DNA from: Alphaproteobacteria bacterium
Lineage (GTDB): Bacteria > Pseudomonadota > Alphaproteobacteria > Rhodospirillales > Rhodospirillaceae
DNA: 34,461 nucleotides
Assembly (NCBI GenBank): GCA_016869315.1
Contig: VGEM01000002.1
Location: 1 to 34,461 of the forward strand
Reading direction: 5' to 3'
In this document: positions 2,977 to 34,461 of the stretch, piece by piece
Position numbering within the stretch: the first letter of the stretch is position 1
Layout: each line of letters begins with the position of its first letter
Notes under the pieces: generated by a model
Database searches by the model: none
The model's input: only the letters and a program-made list of their open reading frames with translations
Told to the model about the DNA's origin: nothing
Position numbers and translations under genes: made by a program

Positions 2977-3066
2977 TCTGTTTGGGATTTGGTGATGCGC
3001 GCCATTGACCGGCCTCAGGCGAAGGCTAGAGTCGGCTGATCACCGTTTCAGACGGAGTTTCGACAC

Positions 3067-4038
3067 ATGGCGCGTCCGCATATCGAGCCCTTCGTCGATC
3101 GCGATGTTGGCTTCAAGAAGTTCACCATGAAAGGCTTCAAGCCCGGCCTCCAGCATAAGACGCTGTCGATCGACAAGGACAACGGCGCCTGCACCATGAC
3201 CATCCAGTACGACAGCGGCTTCAAGCAGCCGCCGGGCTTCAGCTACTCCGAGTGCGAGATGCTGATCATGGAAGGCTCGCTCAAAGTCGGCGACAAGATG
3301 GCGCGCAAGGGCGCCTACTTTTTTGTGCCTGCCGGGGTGCATCTGCCTGCCATCAGCTCCGACGAAGGCGCCTTCGCGCTGATCTTCTACAATTTCGGCC
3401 CGCCGAGTTTCCAGGAGTCCGACCGCGATCACGATCAGGCCGATCGCACCGGCTTCAAGATCATCAACGCCTACGAGGATTTGGATTGGATCATGGTCGC
3501 CCGCCGCACGCCCGGCGTTGCGCCCGGGTGCTGCTCGAAGGTCCTGACCTTCGACGAGAAGACCGGCGCCTGCACTTTCCTTTACTGCATGGTGCCCGGC
3601 TTTTGGCAGGACAACATCAGCTATCACGACTGCGCCGAGGAGGCCTACCACATCTGGGGCACCAGCTGGATGATGCAGTTCGGCAATCTGCCGACCGGCG
3701 GATATTTCTGGCGGCCGGCCTACATCAATCACGGCTGTTTCGCCTCGCAAAACGGCATTCTCGCCATTGGCCGCACCGACGGCGATCTGCACAACCATTT
3801 CCATCACGATCCCTACTCGACGCCTGACGAAAACCAGGAGCGAGCGGCGCAGGTGTGGGCGCGGCAGCGGCCGACGACCTATAAGTGGATTCTCTCCAAC
3901 GGACACAATCACGGCCCGCACGATTTCGCCAACCCGAACGACCACTACGACCCGATCAAATACAACGTGGCCGACATCGCCGACGTGCATTCCCACGATT
4001 ACATGCACAGCCTCGGCATTCATCACGAGCACAAGTAA
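3067..4038 (+). CDS. bicupin-type protein with His-rich tail (copy 2)
   Basis: This is a 323-residue paralogue of the protein at 1924-2922, colinear over nearly its whole length. Shared blocks include the N-terminus RPHIEPFVDRDVGFKK, FKQPPGFSY, and the second-half block YHDCAEEAYHIWGTSWMMQF followed by RPAYINHG. The putative metal-binding His and Glu residues are the same. The tail differs: it is shorter, lacks the lysine run, and ends VHSHDYMHSLGIHHEHK. ACGGAG about nine bases upstream supports the ATG at 3067. The stop codon lies two bases before the ATG of the next gene, so the two are probably cotranscribed. Likely a metal-dependent cupin of unknown substrate. Confidence 0.75.
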   Translation: MARPHIEPFVDRDVGFKKFTMKGFKPGLQHKTLSIDKDNGACTMTIQYDSGFKQPPGFSYSECEMLIMEGSLKVGDKMARKGAYFFVPAGVHLPAISSDEGAFALIFYNFGPPSFQESDRDHDQADRTGFKIINAYEDLDWIMVARRTPGVAPGCCSKVLTFDEKTGACTFLYCMVPGFWQDNISYHDCAEEAYHIWGTSWMMQFGNLPTGGYFWRPAYINHGCFASQNGILAIGRTDGDLHNHFHHDPYSTPDENQERAAQVWARQRPTTYKWILSNGHNHGPHDFANPNDHYDPIKYNVADIADVHSHDYMHSLGIHHEHK

Positions 4039-4040
4039 AC

Positions 4041-4535
4041 ATGCGCGTCCCCGCGGTTGCTTTTGTCGGTTTCGCGGCCGCATCTCTGATCTGCGGCGAT
4101 TGCGACGTGCGGTGGATCACGGCAGCCGAGGCCCAGGAACAGAAAGCCGTCAACGAGGCGGGCGCACCCAAAGCCACCGATGCCGAGCCCGGTTATTGGA
4201 CCAATCTGTTCACCAACACGATGCGCTTCACGGTGATGCACCCGTCGGGCAAGCGGGTGGTCGATGTATTCTACAATCGCGACAAGTCGGTCACGACCAA
4301 CGCTGGCCTGATCGGCGCGTGGCGCACCGAGGGTGAGCCGGGCAAGGAAATGTTTTGCTATCAGCTCGGCGCATTTCCATCGGCGCCCGCCGATCTCGGC
4401 GAGTGCTTTCCGCTCCGACTCATGAACAATCCCCGCATCGGCGCCAAGTGGGGCGGCAAGATGAAACCCGATGTGAACTATCTGGCGGAAGTCGTCGCCG
4501 GCCGCGACACGGCGCCCGCGTCGACCACGCAGTAA
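4041..4535 (+). CDS. small exported protein of unknown function
   Basis: The ATG at 4041 follows the bicupin stop codon by two bases. The 164-residue product starts with a Sec-type signal (MRVPAVAFVGFAAASLI, with cleavage plausible after TAAEAQA-like residues around 30). The mature part has three cysteines (in MFCYQLG, GECFPL and one in the leader region) and ends with a low-complexity DTAPASTTQ tail. A cysteine in the leader is not in a proper lipobox. The gene sits between a bicupin and an amine oxidase and is likely part of the same transcript. I do not recognise a family. Confidence 0.65.
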   Translation: MRVPAVAFVGFAAASLICGDCDVRWITAAEAQEQKAVNEAGAPKATDAEPGYWTNLFTNTMRFTVMHPSGKRVVDVFYNRDKSVTTNAGLIGAWRTEGEPGKEMFCYQLGAFPSAPADLGECFPLRLMNNPRIGAKWGGKMKPDVNYLAEVVAGRDTAPASTTQ

Positions 4536-24272: not shown

Positions 24273-24869
24273 ATGAACGACGCCACTTCGGGCCAGGCGC
24301 CGCCCGTGATCAACATCAAGAAGTATGCCAACCGGCGGCTCTACAACACCGCGACCTCGAGCTATGTCACGCTCGATAACCTGGCAGAGATGGTAAAGAC
24401 CGGTACCGATTTCATCGTCACCGATGCCAAGACCGGAGAAGACCTAACCCGCTCTGTCCTCACCCAGATCATCGTTGAGCAGGAAGGCAAGGGCCAATCC
24501 CTGCTGCCGATCAAATTCCTGCGGCAGATCATCGGGTTTTATGACGATTCCTTGGGGGGCGTCCTGCCGCGATATTTGGAAATGAGCATGGAATCGTTTG
24601 CCCAGAACGAATCCAACATGCGCAAATTGATGCAGGATGCCTTCAAAGGCATGTTCCCGTCACAGCGCATGGAAGAAATCGGCAAGCAGAATCTGGCGTT
24701 GTTCGAGAGCGCCATGAAGATGTTCAACCCGTTTGGCACCATGACCCGGCCCCAAGCCAACTCTGCACCCCAGCCAGGCCGTCCTGAAGCAAGCATCGAT
24801 GTGCAGTCGCTCAAGGCCGAGCTCGAGTCCCTTCAGGCCAAAATCGATCGCCTCGCTCGCGATCGCTAA
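24273..24869 (+). CDS. phaR: polyhydroxyalkanoate synthesis repressor PhaR
   Basis: GAGAAGG five bases upstream supports the ATG at 24273. The 198-residue product has the PhaR N-terminal DNA-binding block INIKKYANRRLYNT followed by VTLDNLAEMVKTG and LTQIIVEQEGKG, then the PHB-accumulation regulatory region (LRQIIGFYDDSL, SFAQNESNMRKLM, QNLALFESAMKMF). A C-terminal coiled coil (SLKAELESLQAKIDRL) closes it. PhaR represses phasin and often PHA genes, and senses PHA by binding granules. Its promoter carries a fitting operator, and the divergent and nearby genes are PHA genes, so local control is likely. Confidence 0.93.
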   Translation: MNDATSGQAPPVINIKKYANRRLYNTATSSYVTLDNLAEMVKTGTDFIVTDAKTGEDLTRSVLTQIIVEQEGKGQSLLPIKFLRQIIGFYDDSLGGVLPRYLEMSMESFAQNESNMRKLMQDAFKGMFPSQRMEEIGKQNLALFESAMKMFNPFGTMTRPQANSAPQPGRPEASIDVQSLKAELESLQAKIDRLARDR

Positions 24870-24930
24870 ATCCTCTCACCAACGCCAGGGTTGATCCCCG
24901 AGTCGCAAGTCGCCCCGGAACCCGAAATTT

Positions 24931-25130
24931 ATTCTCCTATTAGTTGATATAAGATTAAATTATTAATATTTATTGAAATCAAATATTATATAAATTTTTT
25001 ATATTAATAAAATAAATATATTAGCTTATATTGAGATTTTTATTACATTATATTATACAAATATTCCAATAAGTTTTGAGATAATATTTTTTATATCATT
25101 TTTATTTATATAATATTTTCAATAGATTCT
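24931..25130. other. extremely AT-rich intergenic island
   Basis: By direct count these 200 bases hold only 23 G or C (about 11-12%), in a window above 60%. The gene-free gap between phaR and the XRE gene runs 24870-25266; the composition drops sharply at about 24926 and recovers from about 25135. I see no open frame, no DnaA box, and no long T-tract hairpin. It contains many TATAAT-like strings, so promoters cannot be called. Possible roles are a binding zone for an AT-preferring nucleoid protein, or a remnant of foreign DNA. Confidence 0.9.
24971..25124. repeat. inverted repeat flanking the core of the AT-rich island
   Basis: AAATATTATATAAAT (24981-24995) is repeated as its exact reverse complement at 25104-25118. 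TATTGAAA (24971-24978) outside the left arm also matches the reverse complement at 25117-25124, if a few extra bases are allowed in the left arm. The arms enclose about 108 bases. In such AT-rich DNA a 15-base match is not rare by chance, so this is tentative. No target duplication was seen. Confidence 0.35.
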
Positions 25131-25266
25131 CATCAGCGAAAGGACTATCTTTTTCAGCGCATACGATGATATATATTCAACTATTAAGTTGCACAAAGCC
25201 GCTTCTTGATACTCGTAAAAGTTCATAATCGGCGGCAACCCATTGGCGAAAGATCTGGGGGATGTC

Positions 25267-25686
25267 ATGACGCAACTTGCAACGGGCGGCGACACGCCAA
25301 CTCAAATTCGGCCTGCCAGCGCATGTCCGGCGAATCGCGTCGGTAGTGTCGACAAGCACGTCGGTCAGCGGATTCGCGATCGTCGCGTGATGCTGGGTTT
25401 GAGCCAGCAGCAAATGGCCGAGATGATCGGCGTCACTTACCAACAAGCCCACAAATACGCGCGGGGCATCAATCGCATCTCGGCCGGCCGGCTCTTCGAA
25501 ATCGGTCGCGCATTGAGCGTGCCGATCGCCTTTTTCTACGAGGGCCTCGACGGCGCCGAGGATGAGACGTCCTCGCATCGTCATCGCATGTGCCTCGAAC
25601 TCGCGCGGAACTTCGCCAGCATCTCGAACGAGAAGCATCAGGAAGCGATTAGTCAGCTCGCTCGCACTTTGGCGGATCAACAGTAA
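25267..25686 (+). CDS. XRE-family helix-turn-helix regulator
   Basis: GGGGGA five bases upstream supports the ATG at 25267. The 139-residue protein has a lambda-repressor-type HTH at residues about 36-90: VGQRIRDRRVMLGLSQQQMA, IGVTYQQAHKYARGINRIS, then LFEIGRALSVPIAFFYEGL. The rest is helical and has no sensor domain. Short XRE proteins of this build are common in Alphaproteobacteria. It follows the AT-rich island, which contains its upstream region and may hold its operators. Its targets are unknown. It is convergent with the SUMF1-like gene, with 15 bases between stops. Confidence 0.85.
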   Translation: MTQLATGGDTPTQIRPASACPANRVGSVDKHVGQRIRDRRVMLGLSQQQMAEMIGVTYQQAHKYARGINRISAGRLFEIGRALSVPIAFFYEGLDGAEDETSSHRHRMCLELARNFASISNEKHQEAISQLARTLADQQ

Positions 25687-25701: not shown

Positions 25702-26487
25702 TCACGGTCGACGTGCGCCGGCCTCGATCGTTCGCGCGACCCTGAAGCCGATCGTGTAGCTGGCAATCGATCCGACGTTGCCCATGCGCGCGGCTGAGGT
25801 CGCGAGCGCCGGGATGTAATACCAGTCGCCGCCTCGGGTAACCCGCCGCGGACATGCGGCATGATTCGCCTCCTCTCTTGCCGGATCGTGTCGCTCGCTC
25901 CAGCAATCGGCGACCCACTCCGAGACGTTGCCCGACATATCCCGAAGCCCGAACGGATTGGGAGGGAAACTTGCGACCGGTGCGGATTGATTTCCGCCAA
26001 ACGGGTCCGCGCCGCAACTGCGACAGTTCGCGTGCCCCACCCCCACGTCATCGCCCCAGCTATAAGCGGTCACGGTCCCGGCCCGGGCCGCATATTCCCA
26101 CTCGGCCTCCGTCGGCAATCGATACGCCTTGCCAGTGACCCGCGTCAGCCATGAGGCGTAGATATTGGCGTCGTCCCAATCGACGTTGATCACGGGTCGT
26201 GATCCACGGCCCCAGCCGTGGTCATCCTGGCCGCCCCGACACACACCAGCTTCGACACACAGCTGGTACTGATCGAATGTCGTCTCGGTTTCGGCGATCG
26301 CGAACGGACTCTCGATCGCGCGGTCGATCGCCGGTGCGAAGGCCGGTCGTTGACCTTCGGCGCCCATGATAAACCGCCCGGCCGGCAGCACGACCATGGT
26401 TGGGCAGATGTCGCAATCGCGGATGCGCGGCAACTCGGCGGCGACCGCGTGGCTCGCCAGCATTATTGCGAGCAACAGTTCGATCAT
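25702..26487 (-). CDS. exported SUMF1/formylglycine-generating-enzyme-like protein, catalytic Cys absent
   Basis: Start chosen at the ATG at 26487, which overlaps the queG stop (ATGA at 26487-26484); an ATG three codons upstream is also open. The 261-residue protein has a signal peptide ([17 protein letters not shown]), then the FGE-sulfatase fold marks: MVVLPAGRFIMGA, PVINVDWDDANIYASWL, YRLPTEAEWEYAARAG, DMSGNVSEWVAD and RVTRGGDWY with GFRVAR at the end. Real formylglycine-generating enzymes have two Cys shortly after the RV-x-x-GGS block. Here that stretch (YYIPALATSAARMG) has none. It is more likely a binding or structural member. Coupling to queG suggests cotranscription rather than shared function. 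Confidence 0.8.
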   Translation of the reverse strand: MIELLLAIMLASHAVAAELPRIRDCDICPTMVVLPAGRFIMGAEGQRPAFAPAIDRAIESPFAIAETETTFDQYQLCVEAGVCRGGQDDHGWGRGSRPVINVDWDDANIYASWLTRVTGKAYRLPTEAEWEYAARAGTVTAYSWGDDVGVGHANCRSCGADPFGGNQSAPVASFPPNPFGLRDMSGNVSEWVADCWSERHDPAREEANHAACPRRVTRGGDWYYIPALATSAARMGNVGSIASYTIGFRVARTIEAGARRP

Positions 26488-27590
26488 GGCGCCCATTCCG
26501 CCCTCACCGCGTCATCGACCTCTTGAGCACGATACTGCCGCGACAACGCGGCGAAATCGTGGGCATCGAGCAATCGTGACAAGGCCCAGATCGCTGCCGC
26601 CCGCACGATCGGCGAAGGGTCCTCGACGCGCGTGCGGGCGACGCCGGCCAATGAAGGTCGTTGACTATTGCCAATGGCAATCAAGACATTGCGGACAAAC
26701 CGATGGCGACCGATCCGCTTGATCGGCGATTTGCCGAAGAGCGCGCGGAAAGAACCATCGTCGAGCATCGCAAGATCGGCGAGACGTGGGGCCGTCAATT
26801 CGGCCCGCGGCAGAAAGTCGGGCTCCGTCGTCGTCCGCGCGAACTTGTTCCAGGGGCAAATGGCGAGGCAGGCGTCGCATCCGTAGATACGATTGCCGAT
26901 ACCTTCTCTCAGGTCTCGCGGAATATGGCTCTTATGTTCGATGGTCAGATACGAGATGCAGCGCCGGGGATCGATCCGGTAGGGACCGGTGAAGGCGCGA
27001 GTCGGGCATATGTCGAGGCATTGCCGGCATTCGCCGCAATGATCGGACTCCGATGGATCGGGCGCGATTTCAAGCGTGGTCAGTACTTCCGCCAAGAACA
27101 GCCACGACCCGAATTGACGAGAGACCAGGTTCGTATGTTTGCCCTGCCAGCCGAGCCCTGAGGCCTGGGCGAGCGGCTTCTCCAGCAGCGGCGCGGTGTC
27201 GACGAACACTTTGACATCGCCGCCATGGGTCGCCGTCAGCCAACGCGCAAAGGCCTTCAGCCGCTTTTTCAGCGTATCGTGGTAGTCGCGATTGCGGGCG
27301 TAGACGCTGATATCGCCGAGGTCCGCCGGCGTCGGCGCAACATCGGAAACGGGTCCGTAGTTGAGTGCAACCATGATCGCTGAACGTGCCTCCGGCCACA
27401 GCACGGAAACATCCGCGCGACGATCAGCGGTGTCGGTCAGCCAGGTCATGTCGCCGGCAAAATCGGCGGCGATAAAATCGCGGAACTCGTTTTGAGCGCG
27501 GTCGGGCGTTCGGGCTGCCGTGAAGCGGACGGCATCGAAGCCGAATGCCATGACTTCGCGGCGCAGCGATTCGCGATCAATCGTCGCCAT
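26484..27590 (-). CDS. queG: epoxyqueuosine reductase QueG
   Basis: The 368-residue product begins [20 protein letters not shown]. It carries [12 protein letters not shown] with Asp131, and two [4Fe-4S] motifs: C185, C188, C191 (CGECRQC) with C195, and C211 with C238, C241, C245 (CDACLAICP). The C-terminal third is HEAT-like ([14 protein letters not shown]). It reduces epoxyqueuosine to queuosine in tRNA, the last step of the pathway. Its start lies inside the tgt 3' end, a 14-base overlap, and its stop overlaps the SUMF1-like start. With queA and tgt it forms a compact queuosine operon. A frame 11 residues longer exists, but the family start is MAT. Confidence 0.92.
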
Positions 27591-28716
27591 CTTCAGACAC
27601 CTTGCCGCTCTGCCCCGCCGCAAACGCCTGCGCGAATGCGGCCAGGGAGCCCGTCGCGATCGCCGTGCGCATGTCGGCCATCAGTTTTTGATAGAAGGCG
27701 ACGTTGTGCCATGACAACAGCATCAGGCCGAGAATTTCGTCGCAGCGGACCAGATGGTGCAAGTAGGCGCGGCTGTAATTGCGGCTGGCCGGGCAATTGA
27801 CCGTCTCATCGAGTGGCCGTTGGTCTTCGGCGTGCTTCGCGTTGCGAAGATTGAGCGGGCCTTCTGCGGTGAAGGCCTGGGCCGTTCGGCCCGAGCGCGT
27901 CGGGATCACGCAGTCGAACATGTCGATGCCGCGCATCACCGCGCCGACAATGTCGAGCGGCTTGCCGACACCCATCAGATAGCGTGGCCGGTCCGCCGGC
28001 ATATGCGGCGTCAGGCCGTCCAAGGTCGAGAACATCAGGTCCTGGCCTTCGCCGACCGCAAGCCCGCCTATCGCGTATCCGTCGAAGCCGATGCGTTTCA
28101 GCGTGGTCGCCGATTCCTCGCGCAGGTCGGCATGAACGCCGCCCTGAACGATCCCGAAGAGCCCGTATCCCGGTTTCTCGACATAGGCCGTCCTCGATCG
28201 TTCCGCCCATCCCATGGAAAGGCGCATGCTGGCGGCGACATCGGCTTTCTCGGCCGGATAGGGCGTGCATTCGTCGAACGCCATGGTGATGGTGGCATCC
28301 AACAGCCGCTGGATCTCGATCGAACGCTCGGGCGACAAATAGTGGCGCGAGCCGTCGACGTGAGACTGGAACGTAACGCCGCCATCGTCGATCTTGCGAA
28401 GCTTCGCGAGCGACATGACCTGATAGCCGCCAGAGTCGGTCAAGATCGGGCCCTGCCACCCCATGAACGGGCGCACGCCGCCGAGCCGCGCGACGCGCTC
28501 CGCGCCCGGGCGCAGCATCAGATGGTAGGTGTTGGCAAGTATGATCTGCGCGCCTGTCGACGCCACCGTCTCGGGAAACATGGCTTTTACAGTTGCCGCC
28601 GTGCCGACCGGCATGAAGGCCGGCGTGTCAATCGCGCCGTGGGCTGTGACCAGCCGTCCGCGCCGGGCAGGGCCGTCGGTCGCGAGCAGGTCGAACGCGA
28701 GGCTCGGCGACGTCAC
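27577..28716 (-). CDS. tgt: tRNA-guanine transglycosylase
   Basis: The start is the GTG at 28716, which overlaps the queA stop as GTGA; the product is 379 residues. Asp94 (LTDSGGYQ) and Asp268 ([10 protein letters not shown]) are the catalytic residues, and FDECTPYP and GIVQGG bind the base. It swaps guanine-34 for preQ1 in tRNAs with GUN anticodons. The zinc site is odd: the usual C-x-C-x2-C before [10 protein letters not shown] reads VNCPAS, so two of three Cys are Val306 and Ser311, leaving Cys308 and His337. The rest of the enzyme looks intact. Alphaproteobacterial variants of this kind may exist. Confidence 0.92.
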
Positions 28717-29744
28717 TGGGGGCTCGCCCGATGCAGCCAGCACGCATCACCGTAGGAGTAGAAACGGTACCCGTTGGAGATCGCATGCCGGTAAGCGCCT
28801 TGCATACGATCGAGTCCGGCGAAGGCTGAGACCAGCATGAAAAGGGTCGATTTGGGCAGGTGGAAATTGGTCATCAGCACGTCGACGAGTTTGAAACGAT
28901 AACCGGGCATGATGAAGAGCGATGAGTCGTCCGCGAATCGGTCAATCGTGCCGTCTTTCTTGGCGGCCGTTTCGAGCAGCCGGGCCGACGTTGTCCCGAC
29001 CGCAATGACCCGCCCGCCTGCGGCGCGCGCGCGATTGATCGCGGTAGCGGCGGATTCACTGATCCAGCCATGTTCGGCGTGCATCCGATGCTGGCGAGGG
29101 TCGTCGGTCTTCACCGGCAGAAAGGTACCCGCGCCGACGTGCAGAGTCACATGGACGCGTGTCGCGCCCGCCGCGTCGATCCTATCGAGTAACGCCGGCG
29201 TGAAATGCAGTCCTGCCGTCGGAGCAGCGATTGCGCCGTCATGGACGGCATAGGCGGTTTGATAGTCGGTGCGATCGCGTGCGTCGTCGGGACGGTCGAT
29301 ATAGGGCGGCAACGGCACATGTCCGATCCGCTCGATCATTGCCATGAAGGCTGGGCCATGTACACGAAACTCAAGTTCGATCAGGCCGTCGTCTGTTTTG
29401 CCGACGACCCGAGCCGATAGATCTTCGGAGAACGTGACGGTCTGGTCCGGTTTGAGTCGCTTGGCCGGTCGCGCGAAGGCCAACCAGCGGCCCGGTGATC
29501 GCTCCTGATGCAGCAGACATTCGACCTCGACCTCGCCACGCCGACCCAACAGGCGTGCTGGGATGACTCGCGTATCGTTGAAAACCATGACGTCGCCCGG
29601 TCGGACGAGGGTTGGAATATCGCGGATCGTCCGATCGGCGAGGGTACCGGCAACCTCAAGCAATCGGGCGTGATCGCGCGGCACGGCCGGGCGATCGGCA
29701 ATCGCGGCCCGCGGTAGCTCGAAATCGAAATCCTCAGTACGCAT
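28713..29744 (-). CDS. queA: S-adenosylmethionine:tRNA ribosyltransferase-isomerase
   Basis: The 343-residue product begins [20 protein letters not shown], the QueA start. Conserved blocks are [36 protein letters not shown] with [32 protein letters not shown] and [13 protein letters not shown]. It moves the ribosyl part of SAM to preQ1 in tRNA, making epoxyqueuosine, which QueG reduces. The length is normal. The order queA-tgt-queG with overlapping stops and starts implies one transcript. An ATG at 29820 on the other strand starts a divergent gene. Confidence 0.93.
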
Positions 29745-31076: not shown

Positions 31077-32606
31077 ATGGACATCCGCGCCGCAGAAATT
31101 TCCAACATTCTCAAGCAGCAAATCGCCAATTTCGGCACCGAAGCCGAATCGGCCGAAGTGGGCCAAGTGCTCGCGGTTGGCGACGGCATCGCCCGCGTCT
31201 ACGGGCTCGACAACGTCCAGTCGGGCGAGATGGTCGAGTTTCCGGGCGGCCTCAAGGGCATGGCGCTCAATCTCGAAACCGACAACGTCGGCGTCGTGAT
31301 CTTCGGCGATGACTCGGGCATCAAGGAAGGCGACACCGTCAAGCGCACCGGCACCATCGTCGACGTTCCGGTCGGCAAAGGCCTGTTGGGTCGCGTCGTG
31401 GACGGCCTCGGCAATGCCATCGACGGCAAGGGCGAGATCAAGGCGACCGAACGCCGTTTGGCCGAACTCAAGGCCCCAGGCATCATTCCGCGCCGCTCGG
31501 TGCACGAGCCGATGCAGACCGGCATCAAGGCGATCGACGCGTTGATCCCGGTTGGTCGCGGTCAGCGCGAGCTGATCATCGGCGACCGGCAGACTGGAAA
31601 AACCGCCGTCATCCTCGACACGATCATCAACCAGAAGAAGGTGAATGCATCGGGGAACGAGAAGGAAAAGCTTTACTGCATCTATGTCGCCGTCGGTCAG
31701 AAACGCTCGACCGTGGCGCAGGTGATGAAGACGCTCGCCGACCAGGGCGCGCTCGAATACACCATCGTCGTTGCCGCCACCGCGTCGGACCCGGCGCCGA
31801 TGCAGTTCCTCGCGCCCTACACCGGCGCTGCCATGGGCGAATGGTTCCGCGACAACGGCATGCACGCCGTCATTTTCTACGACGATTTGTCGAAGCAGGC
31901 CGTCGCCTACCGCCAGATGTCGCTGCTGCTGCGCCGCCCGCCAGGCCGCGAAGCGTATCCGGGTGACGTGTTCTATCTCCACTCGCGTTTGCTCGAGCGC
32001 GCGGCGAAACTCAACGAGAAGAACGGCGCCGGCTCGCTGACCGCGTTGCCGGTGATCGAAACTCAAGCCGGTGACGTATCGGCCTATATTCCGACCAACG
32101 TGATCTCGATCACCGACGGTCAGATTTTTCTTGAAACGACGCTGTTCTATCAGGGCATCCGGCCCGCGCTGAACGTCGGCATCTCGGTGTCGCGCGTCGG
32201 CTCGGCCGCCCAGATCAAAGCGATGAAGCAAGTGTCGGGTTCGATGAAGCTCGAACTGGCCCAGTACCGTGAAATGCGCGCCTTCGCCCAGTTTGCCTCG
32301 GACCTCGACCCAGCCACGCAGAAACTGCTGTCGCGCGGCGAGCGCCTCACCGAACTGTTGAAACAGCCGCAATACAAGCCGGTTCCGGTCGAGGAACAGG
32401 TGGTGTCGATATTTGCCGGCACCGGCGGGTATCTCGACAAGATCGCAGTGAAGGACATCGGCCGTTTCGAGAGCTCGATGTTGGCGGCTCTGCGCGACAA
32501 GGGCGCCGACATTCTCACCGCGATTCGGAGCGAAAAAGCGCTGAGCGACGCCCTCCGGGCCAAGCTCAAGTCGTTCCTCGACGATTTCACCAAGTCCTTC
32601 GCCTAA
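31077..32606 (+). CDS. atpA: ATP synthase subunit alpha
   Basis: The 509-residue product starts [20 protein letters not shown]. The P-loop is GDRQTGKTA (residues 169-177), and the ATP-synthase signature block [20 protein letters not shown] is present with the alpha-specific arginine. Length and motifs are complete. It forms the non-catalytic nucleotide-binding part of the F1 hexamer. It begins right after atpH and lies 41 bases before atpG. Confidence 0.97.
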
Positions 32607-32647
32607 CGCCCACGCACGGTATCAGACACAGGCCCGCGTAGTCGCCC

Positions 32648-33517
32648 ATGCCCAGTCTCAAGGACTTCCGCGTCCGGATCGCGTCGGTGCAGTCGACGAA
32701 GAAGATCACCTCCGCCATGAAAATGGTGGCGGCGTCGAAACTGCGCCGCGCCCAGGAAGCGGCCGAGGCGGCCCGGCCTTACGCCGAACGCATGGAAAAG
32801 ATGCTGGGCAATCTGGCCGGTAGTTTCAAAGGTCAGGCCGGCGCGCCCAAGATGATGGCCGGCACAGGCAAGGACGACGTTCATCTGCTGCTGGTCATGA
32901 CCGCGAACCGCGGTTTGTGCGGCGGCTTCAACTCGAACATCATTCGTATGGCGCGCACGACGATTCGCGAGCTGCGCGATCAAGGAAAGACAGTAAAGGT
33001 GCTGTGCGTTGGCCGCCGAGGCCGCGACAACCTGCGCCGTGACTATTGCGATCTGATCGTCGACAGTTTCACCGAGTTCGGTCGCAAGACCGTCGCCCTC
33101 GTCGAGGCGGCCCAAGTCGCGACCAAAGTCACCGACATGTTCGAGGCAGGCCAGTTCGACGTCTGCACCATGATCTACTCGCGGTTCAAGTCGGCCATGA
33201 CGCAGATTCCGAGCCGCCAGCAGATCGTGCCGTTTCCGGCCCCGGCATCGGCAGCGCCTTCGGTGCCTTACGATTATGAACCGTCCGACAAAGAAATTCT
33301 GCAAGACCTGTTGCCGCGCAATCTCGCAATCCAGGTCTTCCGGTCGATGTTGGAAAACGCAGCGTCGTTCTACGGCGCGCAGATGACGGCGATGGACAGC
33401 GCGACCCGCAACGCCGGCGACATGATCAGAAACTTGACGCTCCGCTATAACCGCACGCGCCAGGCGATGATCACCAAGGAACTGATTGAAATCATCTCGG
33501 GGGCCGAGGCGGTCTAA
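32648..33517 (+). CDS. atpG: ATP synthase subunit gamma
   Basis: The 289-residue product opens [20 protein letters not shown] with [16 protein letters not shown], the gamma N-terminal helix. [15 protein letters not shown] marks the conserved centre, and the C-terminal helix has [20 protein letters not shown]. It is the rotating shaft of F1. The atpD ATG is 33 bases after its stop, with GGAG upstream. Confidence 0.96.

Positions 33518-34461
<944 letters not shown>

Follow-up and report, generated by a model that had tools for sequence, protein, structure and literature searches.

The intergenic gap between phaR and the gene for an XRE-type regulator contains an AT island that is real and one of a kind in its own genome. 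AT-rich 5' control regions are a known kind of element, of which this island is, overall, a striking variant. Our preferred reading, held tentatively and with a confidence that falls a little short of even, is that the island is the inner 5' control region of the XRE regulator, which in this lineage would have been rewired, a specific operator giving way to bulk AT-rich DNA that melts easily and that AT-binding proteins may bind. Neutral drift of the spacer is a serious alternative and the main rival to this reading.

Composition and rarity of the AT island

The window, by which we mean the whole stretch of DNA analysed, is the complete contig C2 (34,461 bp) of a 4.12-Mb genome assembly with 577 contigs, and the features of interest are collected in Table 1. 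An earlier note on this DNA had counted 23 G/C in the 200 bases from 24931 to 25130, and a direct recount gave exactly this number. The maximal-scoring AT segment, which defines the island in Table 1, is 89% A+T. Its GC content of 10.8% (95% CI 6.9-15.9%) may be compared with 61.6% for the whole contig, so that the AT content of this promoter region is far above the genome average. The island was correctly placed between phaR and the XRE gene; it begins 55 bp past the phaR stop and ends 138 bp ahead of the XRE start codon. It had also been described as having sharp borders. This is true of the left border, where the GC content falls from 65.5% to 10.8%, but the right border is graded, with 34% GC over the next 62 bp and then 50%. 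The 6-bp sequence ATTCTC is present at both borders.

Table 1. Features of the phaR-XRE region, in window coordinates
Feature	Coordinates	Strand	Basis and remarks
phaR, polyhydroxyalkanoate synthesis repressor	24273..24869	+	TIGR01848 143.5 bits, PF07879, PF05233; start 24273 chosen by homology
phaR-XRE intergenic gap, 397 bp	24870..25266	+	about 395 bp in the congener
AT island, 22 G/C in 204 bp (10.8%)	24925..25128	.	maximal-scoring AT segment; unique in genome; least stable 100-bp duplex of window
Expected place of the family-wide element TAACAATTTTTTACAA(TTCTC), degenerate here (TATATAATATTTTCAATAGATTCTCAT)	25107..25133	+	island's downstream edge; putative placement
XRE-type regulator, 139 aa, HTH_3, long branch in this lineage	25267..25686	+	Pfam HTH_3 (PF01381) E 3.8e-11
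FGE-sulfatase-domain protein, convergent downstream neighbour, syntenic in congener	25702..26496	-	PF03781 E 2.3e-50; 59% identical to congener's neighbour

Nothing else in the window rivals the island, as the earlier note had stated; the next-lowest 200-bp stretch has 50% GC. The claim of uniqueness in the genome as a whole is based on pattern searches and on a GC sample of 414 kb from 20 contigs of the same genome. In this sample the GC content of 200-bp stretches has a mean of 62.2% and a standard deviation of 4.5%, which places the island 11 SD low, and outside the island the minimum is 34%. A pattern of 30 W, 6 N and 20 W, with at most three mismatches, matched the 4.12-Mb genome 65 times, every time inside the island. 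There are six AT runs of at least 17 in the genome. Three of them are in the island, and near the remaining three the 200-bp GC content does not fall below 44-48%. A genome scan for similar islands had been proposed in the note, and in the 414 kb sampled its outcome leaves the island alone at the bottom of the scale. When at most two mismatches were allowed, 10 of the 59 family genomes yielded the same pattern, some of these genomes being strongly AT-rich; in the GC-richer members (G017, G029, G024 and G031) the matches sit at other loci. Rare as they are in the family, such AT islands have precedents, none of which lies ahead of the orthologue of this XRE gene. Two other family genomes have AT islands at unrelated loci (L149, about 1488-1690, and L146, about 1459-1660), with 13% and 17% GC over 200 bp, respectively, and the ORF that neighbours the L149 island looks by eye like a nucleotide-sugar epimerase/dehydratase.

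No other 100-bp duplex of the window comes close to the island in low stability (-0.92 kcal/mol per step, the mean being -1.57), and it is as a physical property only that the unwinding element suggested in the earlier note is borne out. Given this composition, A and T follow one another almost at random: there are 42 TpA steps, with no excess over the composition-based expectation, and homopolymers of A or T with at least four bases number only seven. Helical phasing of A-tracts (about 10.5 bp) is absent from the island, 56% of shuffles reaching its score. This lack of phasing led to the rejection of curvature and leaves the suggested DNA-bending element with no sign of intrinsic bending. A sigma-70 scan found two promoter-like matches, against a shuffle mean of 2.1, and a terminator scan of the island did no better than on shuffles. 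There are no ORFs of at least 60 aa within the island and no long terminal or element-like repeats were found at it. An Rfam search with E values up to 1 gave no match, and on this ground a structured or known RNA leader was rejected. One-mismatch matches to CtrA-like and IHF-like sites do occur, but such matches are expected in AT-rich DNA.

That the island is a replication origin or a DNA-unwinding element is highly improbable. Although it is the least stable duplex of the window and unique in the genome, the DnaA boxes amount to a single degenerate one with one mismatch (TTATACAAA) and no cluster, the orthologous gaps in relatives are not extreme, and the neighbouring genes are metabolic. 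GC skew is near zero across the window and flat in the 721-kb contig of a relative, a flatness that makes skew uninformative on this question.

The gap in related genomes

The comparison within the genus was made with one congener, G001, whose assembly is 66% complete. The gene order is identical there: phaR, the gap, XRE, an FGE-like gene, queG and tgt. The two gaps are nearly equal in length (Table 1) though the flanking proteins of the two species are only 59-78% identical, and that of the congener holds a 237-bp segment at 24.5% GC. The family, which includes Roseospira, shows low local GC upstream of the XRE orthologue in most of its other genera too, with 100-bp minima of 28-55%, and where relatives possess the conserved element described below, the minimum is centred on it. 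The gap is longer in this genus than in the other examined genera with close phaR-XRE linkage. The earlier note had regarded ordinary GC in relatives as a sign of an artefact; the answer is a graded one, since GC is very low in the congener and mildly low in most other genera. These comparisons show that the gap, together with its AT dip, predates the genus and that the extreme composition arose in the window's lineage.

This old position and AT tendency, seen in the congener and in the dip across the family, are hard to reconcile with either a recent insertion or an assembly error. We give almost no credence to an assembly or binning artefact: the assembly is indeed fragmented, but the independent congener assembly shows the same synteny and an AT-rich gap. 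It is also very unlikely that the island is a foreign remnant or an inserted element between phaR and XRE, as had been suggested. The sharp left border and the ATTCTC at both ends are compatible with such an origin, and the greater length of the gap in this genus would permit an insertion in the genus ancestor. However, the congener gap has the same length, is AT-rich throughout and has the ancestral element at its downstream end, and the island contains neither a reading frame nor long terminal repeats nor an Rfam match. A recent foreign insertion was rejected on the strength of the equal-length, AT-rich gap of the congener, which leaves the foreign remnant of the note unsupported.

Several further observations were made in these regions. 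A perfect inverted repeat of 10 bp (TTAAGTTTGG...CCAAACTTAA, L012:670-700) lies in the congener gap and has no conserved counterpart in the gap of the window. The congener has a second AT island (L078, about 1429-1628, in G001:C554), with 14% GC over 100 bp and, in its flanks, one ORF that resembles an ABC-transporter ATPase by eye. In the window, a queuosine cluster (queG, tgt, queA; 26484-29744) lies downstream of the XRE/FGE pair, and queG and tgt follow in the congener as well. Two minus-strand ORFs of the window, at 32603-34132 (509 aa) and 3040-4083 (347 aa), have no Pfam match. In a scan of the conserved collection the closest named relative was Roseospira, at 69-73%.

A conserved element and a fast-evolving regulator

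Most of the close phaR-linked relatives were found, on alignment of the gaps, to carry a block, TAACAATTTTTTACAA, inside the AT dip. In whole-genome searches the sequence AACAATTTTTTACAW was found exactly once per genome in 10 of the 59 family genomes, from five genera and with the congener included, and always in the phaR-XRE gap, 137-172 bp upstream of the aligned start of XRE. In the congener it lies at L012:840-854, at the downstream end of the gap, with a motif match of 15/16; the same element is present in nine other family genomes. A single copy per genome is what one expects of an operator or promoter element tied to one locus, and not of a site shared across a regulon, which makes AACAATTTTTTACAW a candidate for such an element. 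A whole-genome search of the window's own genome found no copy of AACAATTTTTTACAW, and the best motif matches in the window's gap are 10-12/16, no better than the AT background. The window's lineage has lost the operator-like element kept by ten relatives.

The XRE regulator is conserved and single-copy, and putatively PraR-like. Its protein is 64-78% identical to its family orthologues and its reading frame is intact, and among annotated plasmid sequences its closest homologues, 38-45% identical, are HTH proteins whose function is not named. It shares 72% identity with the congener's protein, whereas the latter shares 82-88% with those of many other genera. In the XRE tree, which does not resolve the two congeners as sisters, the tip branch is 0.75 for the window and 0.10 for the congener. 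The PhaR proteins of the two congeners, by comparison, are each other's closest (79%), with tip branches of 0.21 and 0.27, respectively. Relative-rate tests with six outgroups rejected equal rates for XRE (p 0.0002-0.03), and for PhaR equal rates were not rejected (p 0.47-1). Further, the recognition-helix motif KYERG is KYARG only in the window's XRE, the glutamate being kept in all 29 other orthologues. These comparisons indicate that the XRE protein evolved fast on the window's lineage while PhaR evolved at a normal rate. The possibility that a paralogue stands in place of the true XRE orthologue was rejected on the finding that the genome holds no second close XRE homologue, the next match being weaker than E 1e-21.

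Rewired control or neutral decay

Based on the following argument, we favor a functional reading of the island. PraR, a repressor, binds the promoter of its own gene, praR (PMC4149787, PMC5527310), and from its binding in rhizobia (PMC4149787) we infer that the ancestral circuit was probably autoregulatory, acting through a discrete operator in the AT dip. Like the praR promoters (PMC4149787, PMC5527310), the present locus has an XRE/HTH_3 regulator and, before the genes of relatives, a locus-specific conserved element. The size of the regulator, about 140 aa (139 aa), and its HTH_3 domain (PF01381, E 3.8e-11) are those of a PraR-type protein. The family element, AACAATTTTTTACAW, sets the locus apart from the praR promoters, and the PraR likeness of the regulator is itself putative. 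Of the PraR sites CAAC-N5-GTTG and TTGCAA, neither is found in the gap of the window or of the congener, where at most 6/8 positions match and TTGCAA is absent. In the window's lineage this circuit would have been rewired, with the operator lost and the regulator changed, and the gap would now be a bulk AT-rich, easily melted upstream region. MucR, GapR or the C-terminal domain of the RNA polymerase alpha subunit would bind there without a specific site and set the expression of XRE. MucR and GapR are both encoded in this genome, and GapR also in most of the relatives tested.

The alternative is neutral decay, in which selection on the regulator or on its autoregulation is relaxed, the operator is lost and the spacer drifts AT-ward under mutation bias, leaving an island with no function. 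We consider this quite possible, at a confidence well below even. The element was lost and the protein accelerated on the same lineage, and the acceleration of the XRE protein could equally fit relaxed constraint on the whole unit, which speaks against rewiring. The near-random order of A and T, with no phased tracts, TpA excess or motif density, is likewise as drift would leave it. Mutational-equilibrium GC has been estimated at about 19-34% in other bacteria (PMC2936535), and the 24.5% of the congener segment is within these published values. The 10.8% of the island, however, is under these estimates, no other gap in the 414 kb comes near it, the gap length is almost unchanged between species whose flanking proteins are so divergent, and the XRE frame is intact. 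A GC content that, with its confidence interval (6.9-15.9%), is at or below the equilibrium range, when nothing else in the sample is below 34%, suggests more than drift. Because the island is below the published equilibrium estimates and no gap of the sampled genome is comparable, the functional reading is favored, without certainty.

In a further reading, MucR (Ros family) would nucleate on the island, oligomerise and repress XRE. We think such a silencing platform quite unlikely. One gene for MucR (PF05443) is present in this genome and one in the congener. In alphaproteobacteria MucR plays an H-NS-like part, and the DNA it prefers is AT-rich with T-A steps (PMC5881533, PMC8857273). Like the regions described there, the island is AT-rich, non-coding and upstream of a regulator, with many T-A steps and few A-tracts. 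In contrast to them, it does not have the published periodic-T pattern (TT-N3-G-N3-T-N10-TT, 0 occurrences versus 0.48 in shuffles) and it precedes a core gene of the family, while recruitment has been reported mainly at strain-specific, recently acquired AT-rich genes. It is also more AT-rich and more continuous than the oligonucleotides of 40-73% AT described as MucR sites (PMC5881533). Further, G007 and other relatives that lack MucR keep the AT dip, and the dip is therefore independent of MucR. Thus the MucR/Ros docking put forward in the earlier note has the encoded protein in its favor and the missing flexible T-repeat pattern and unexceptional TpA frequency against it. For AT-binding proteins in general its proposal is plausible, given a dip conserved before the same gene and genes for MucR and GapR, but not for H-NS; the domain PF00816 was not found in the genome and an H-NS silencer was rejected on this basis. 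GapR binds AT-rich, overtwisted DNA (PMC8510090), AT-rich DNA being its preferred substrate, and it tracks positive supercoiling and the 3' ends of highly expressed genes; at the present locus GapR is a candidate binder. A docking or unwinding role for the island is plausible.

A more specific version of the rewiring reading holds that, within one genus, a composition-based control region, its AT content maintained by selection, took the place of a conserved autoregulatory operator that stood in single copy before the gene of a core regulator, and that the recognition helix of this regulator changed faster alongside. We regard this combination as unlikely. If selection does maintain the island, it would be a clean natural case of the passage from a specific operator to composition-driven control of a core regulator in a GC-rich bacterium, with the congener as an intermediate state. 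If the island is neutral, it would document, in a rare local case, the extent to which AT-biased mutation can shift an unused spacer in a GC-rich genome. Whichever reading of the island holds, AACAATTTTTTACAW (the AACAATTTTTTACAA site) is a concrete candidate binding site for an uncharacterised XRE core regulator.
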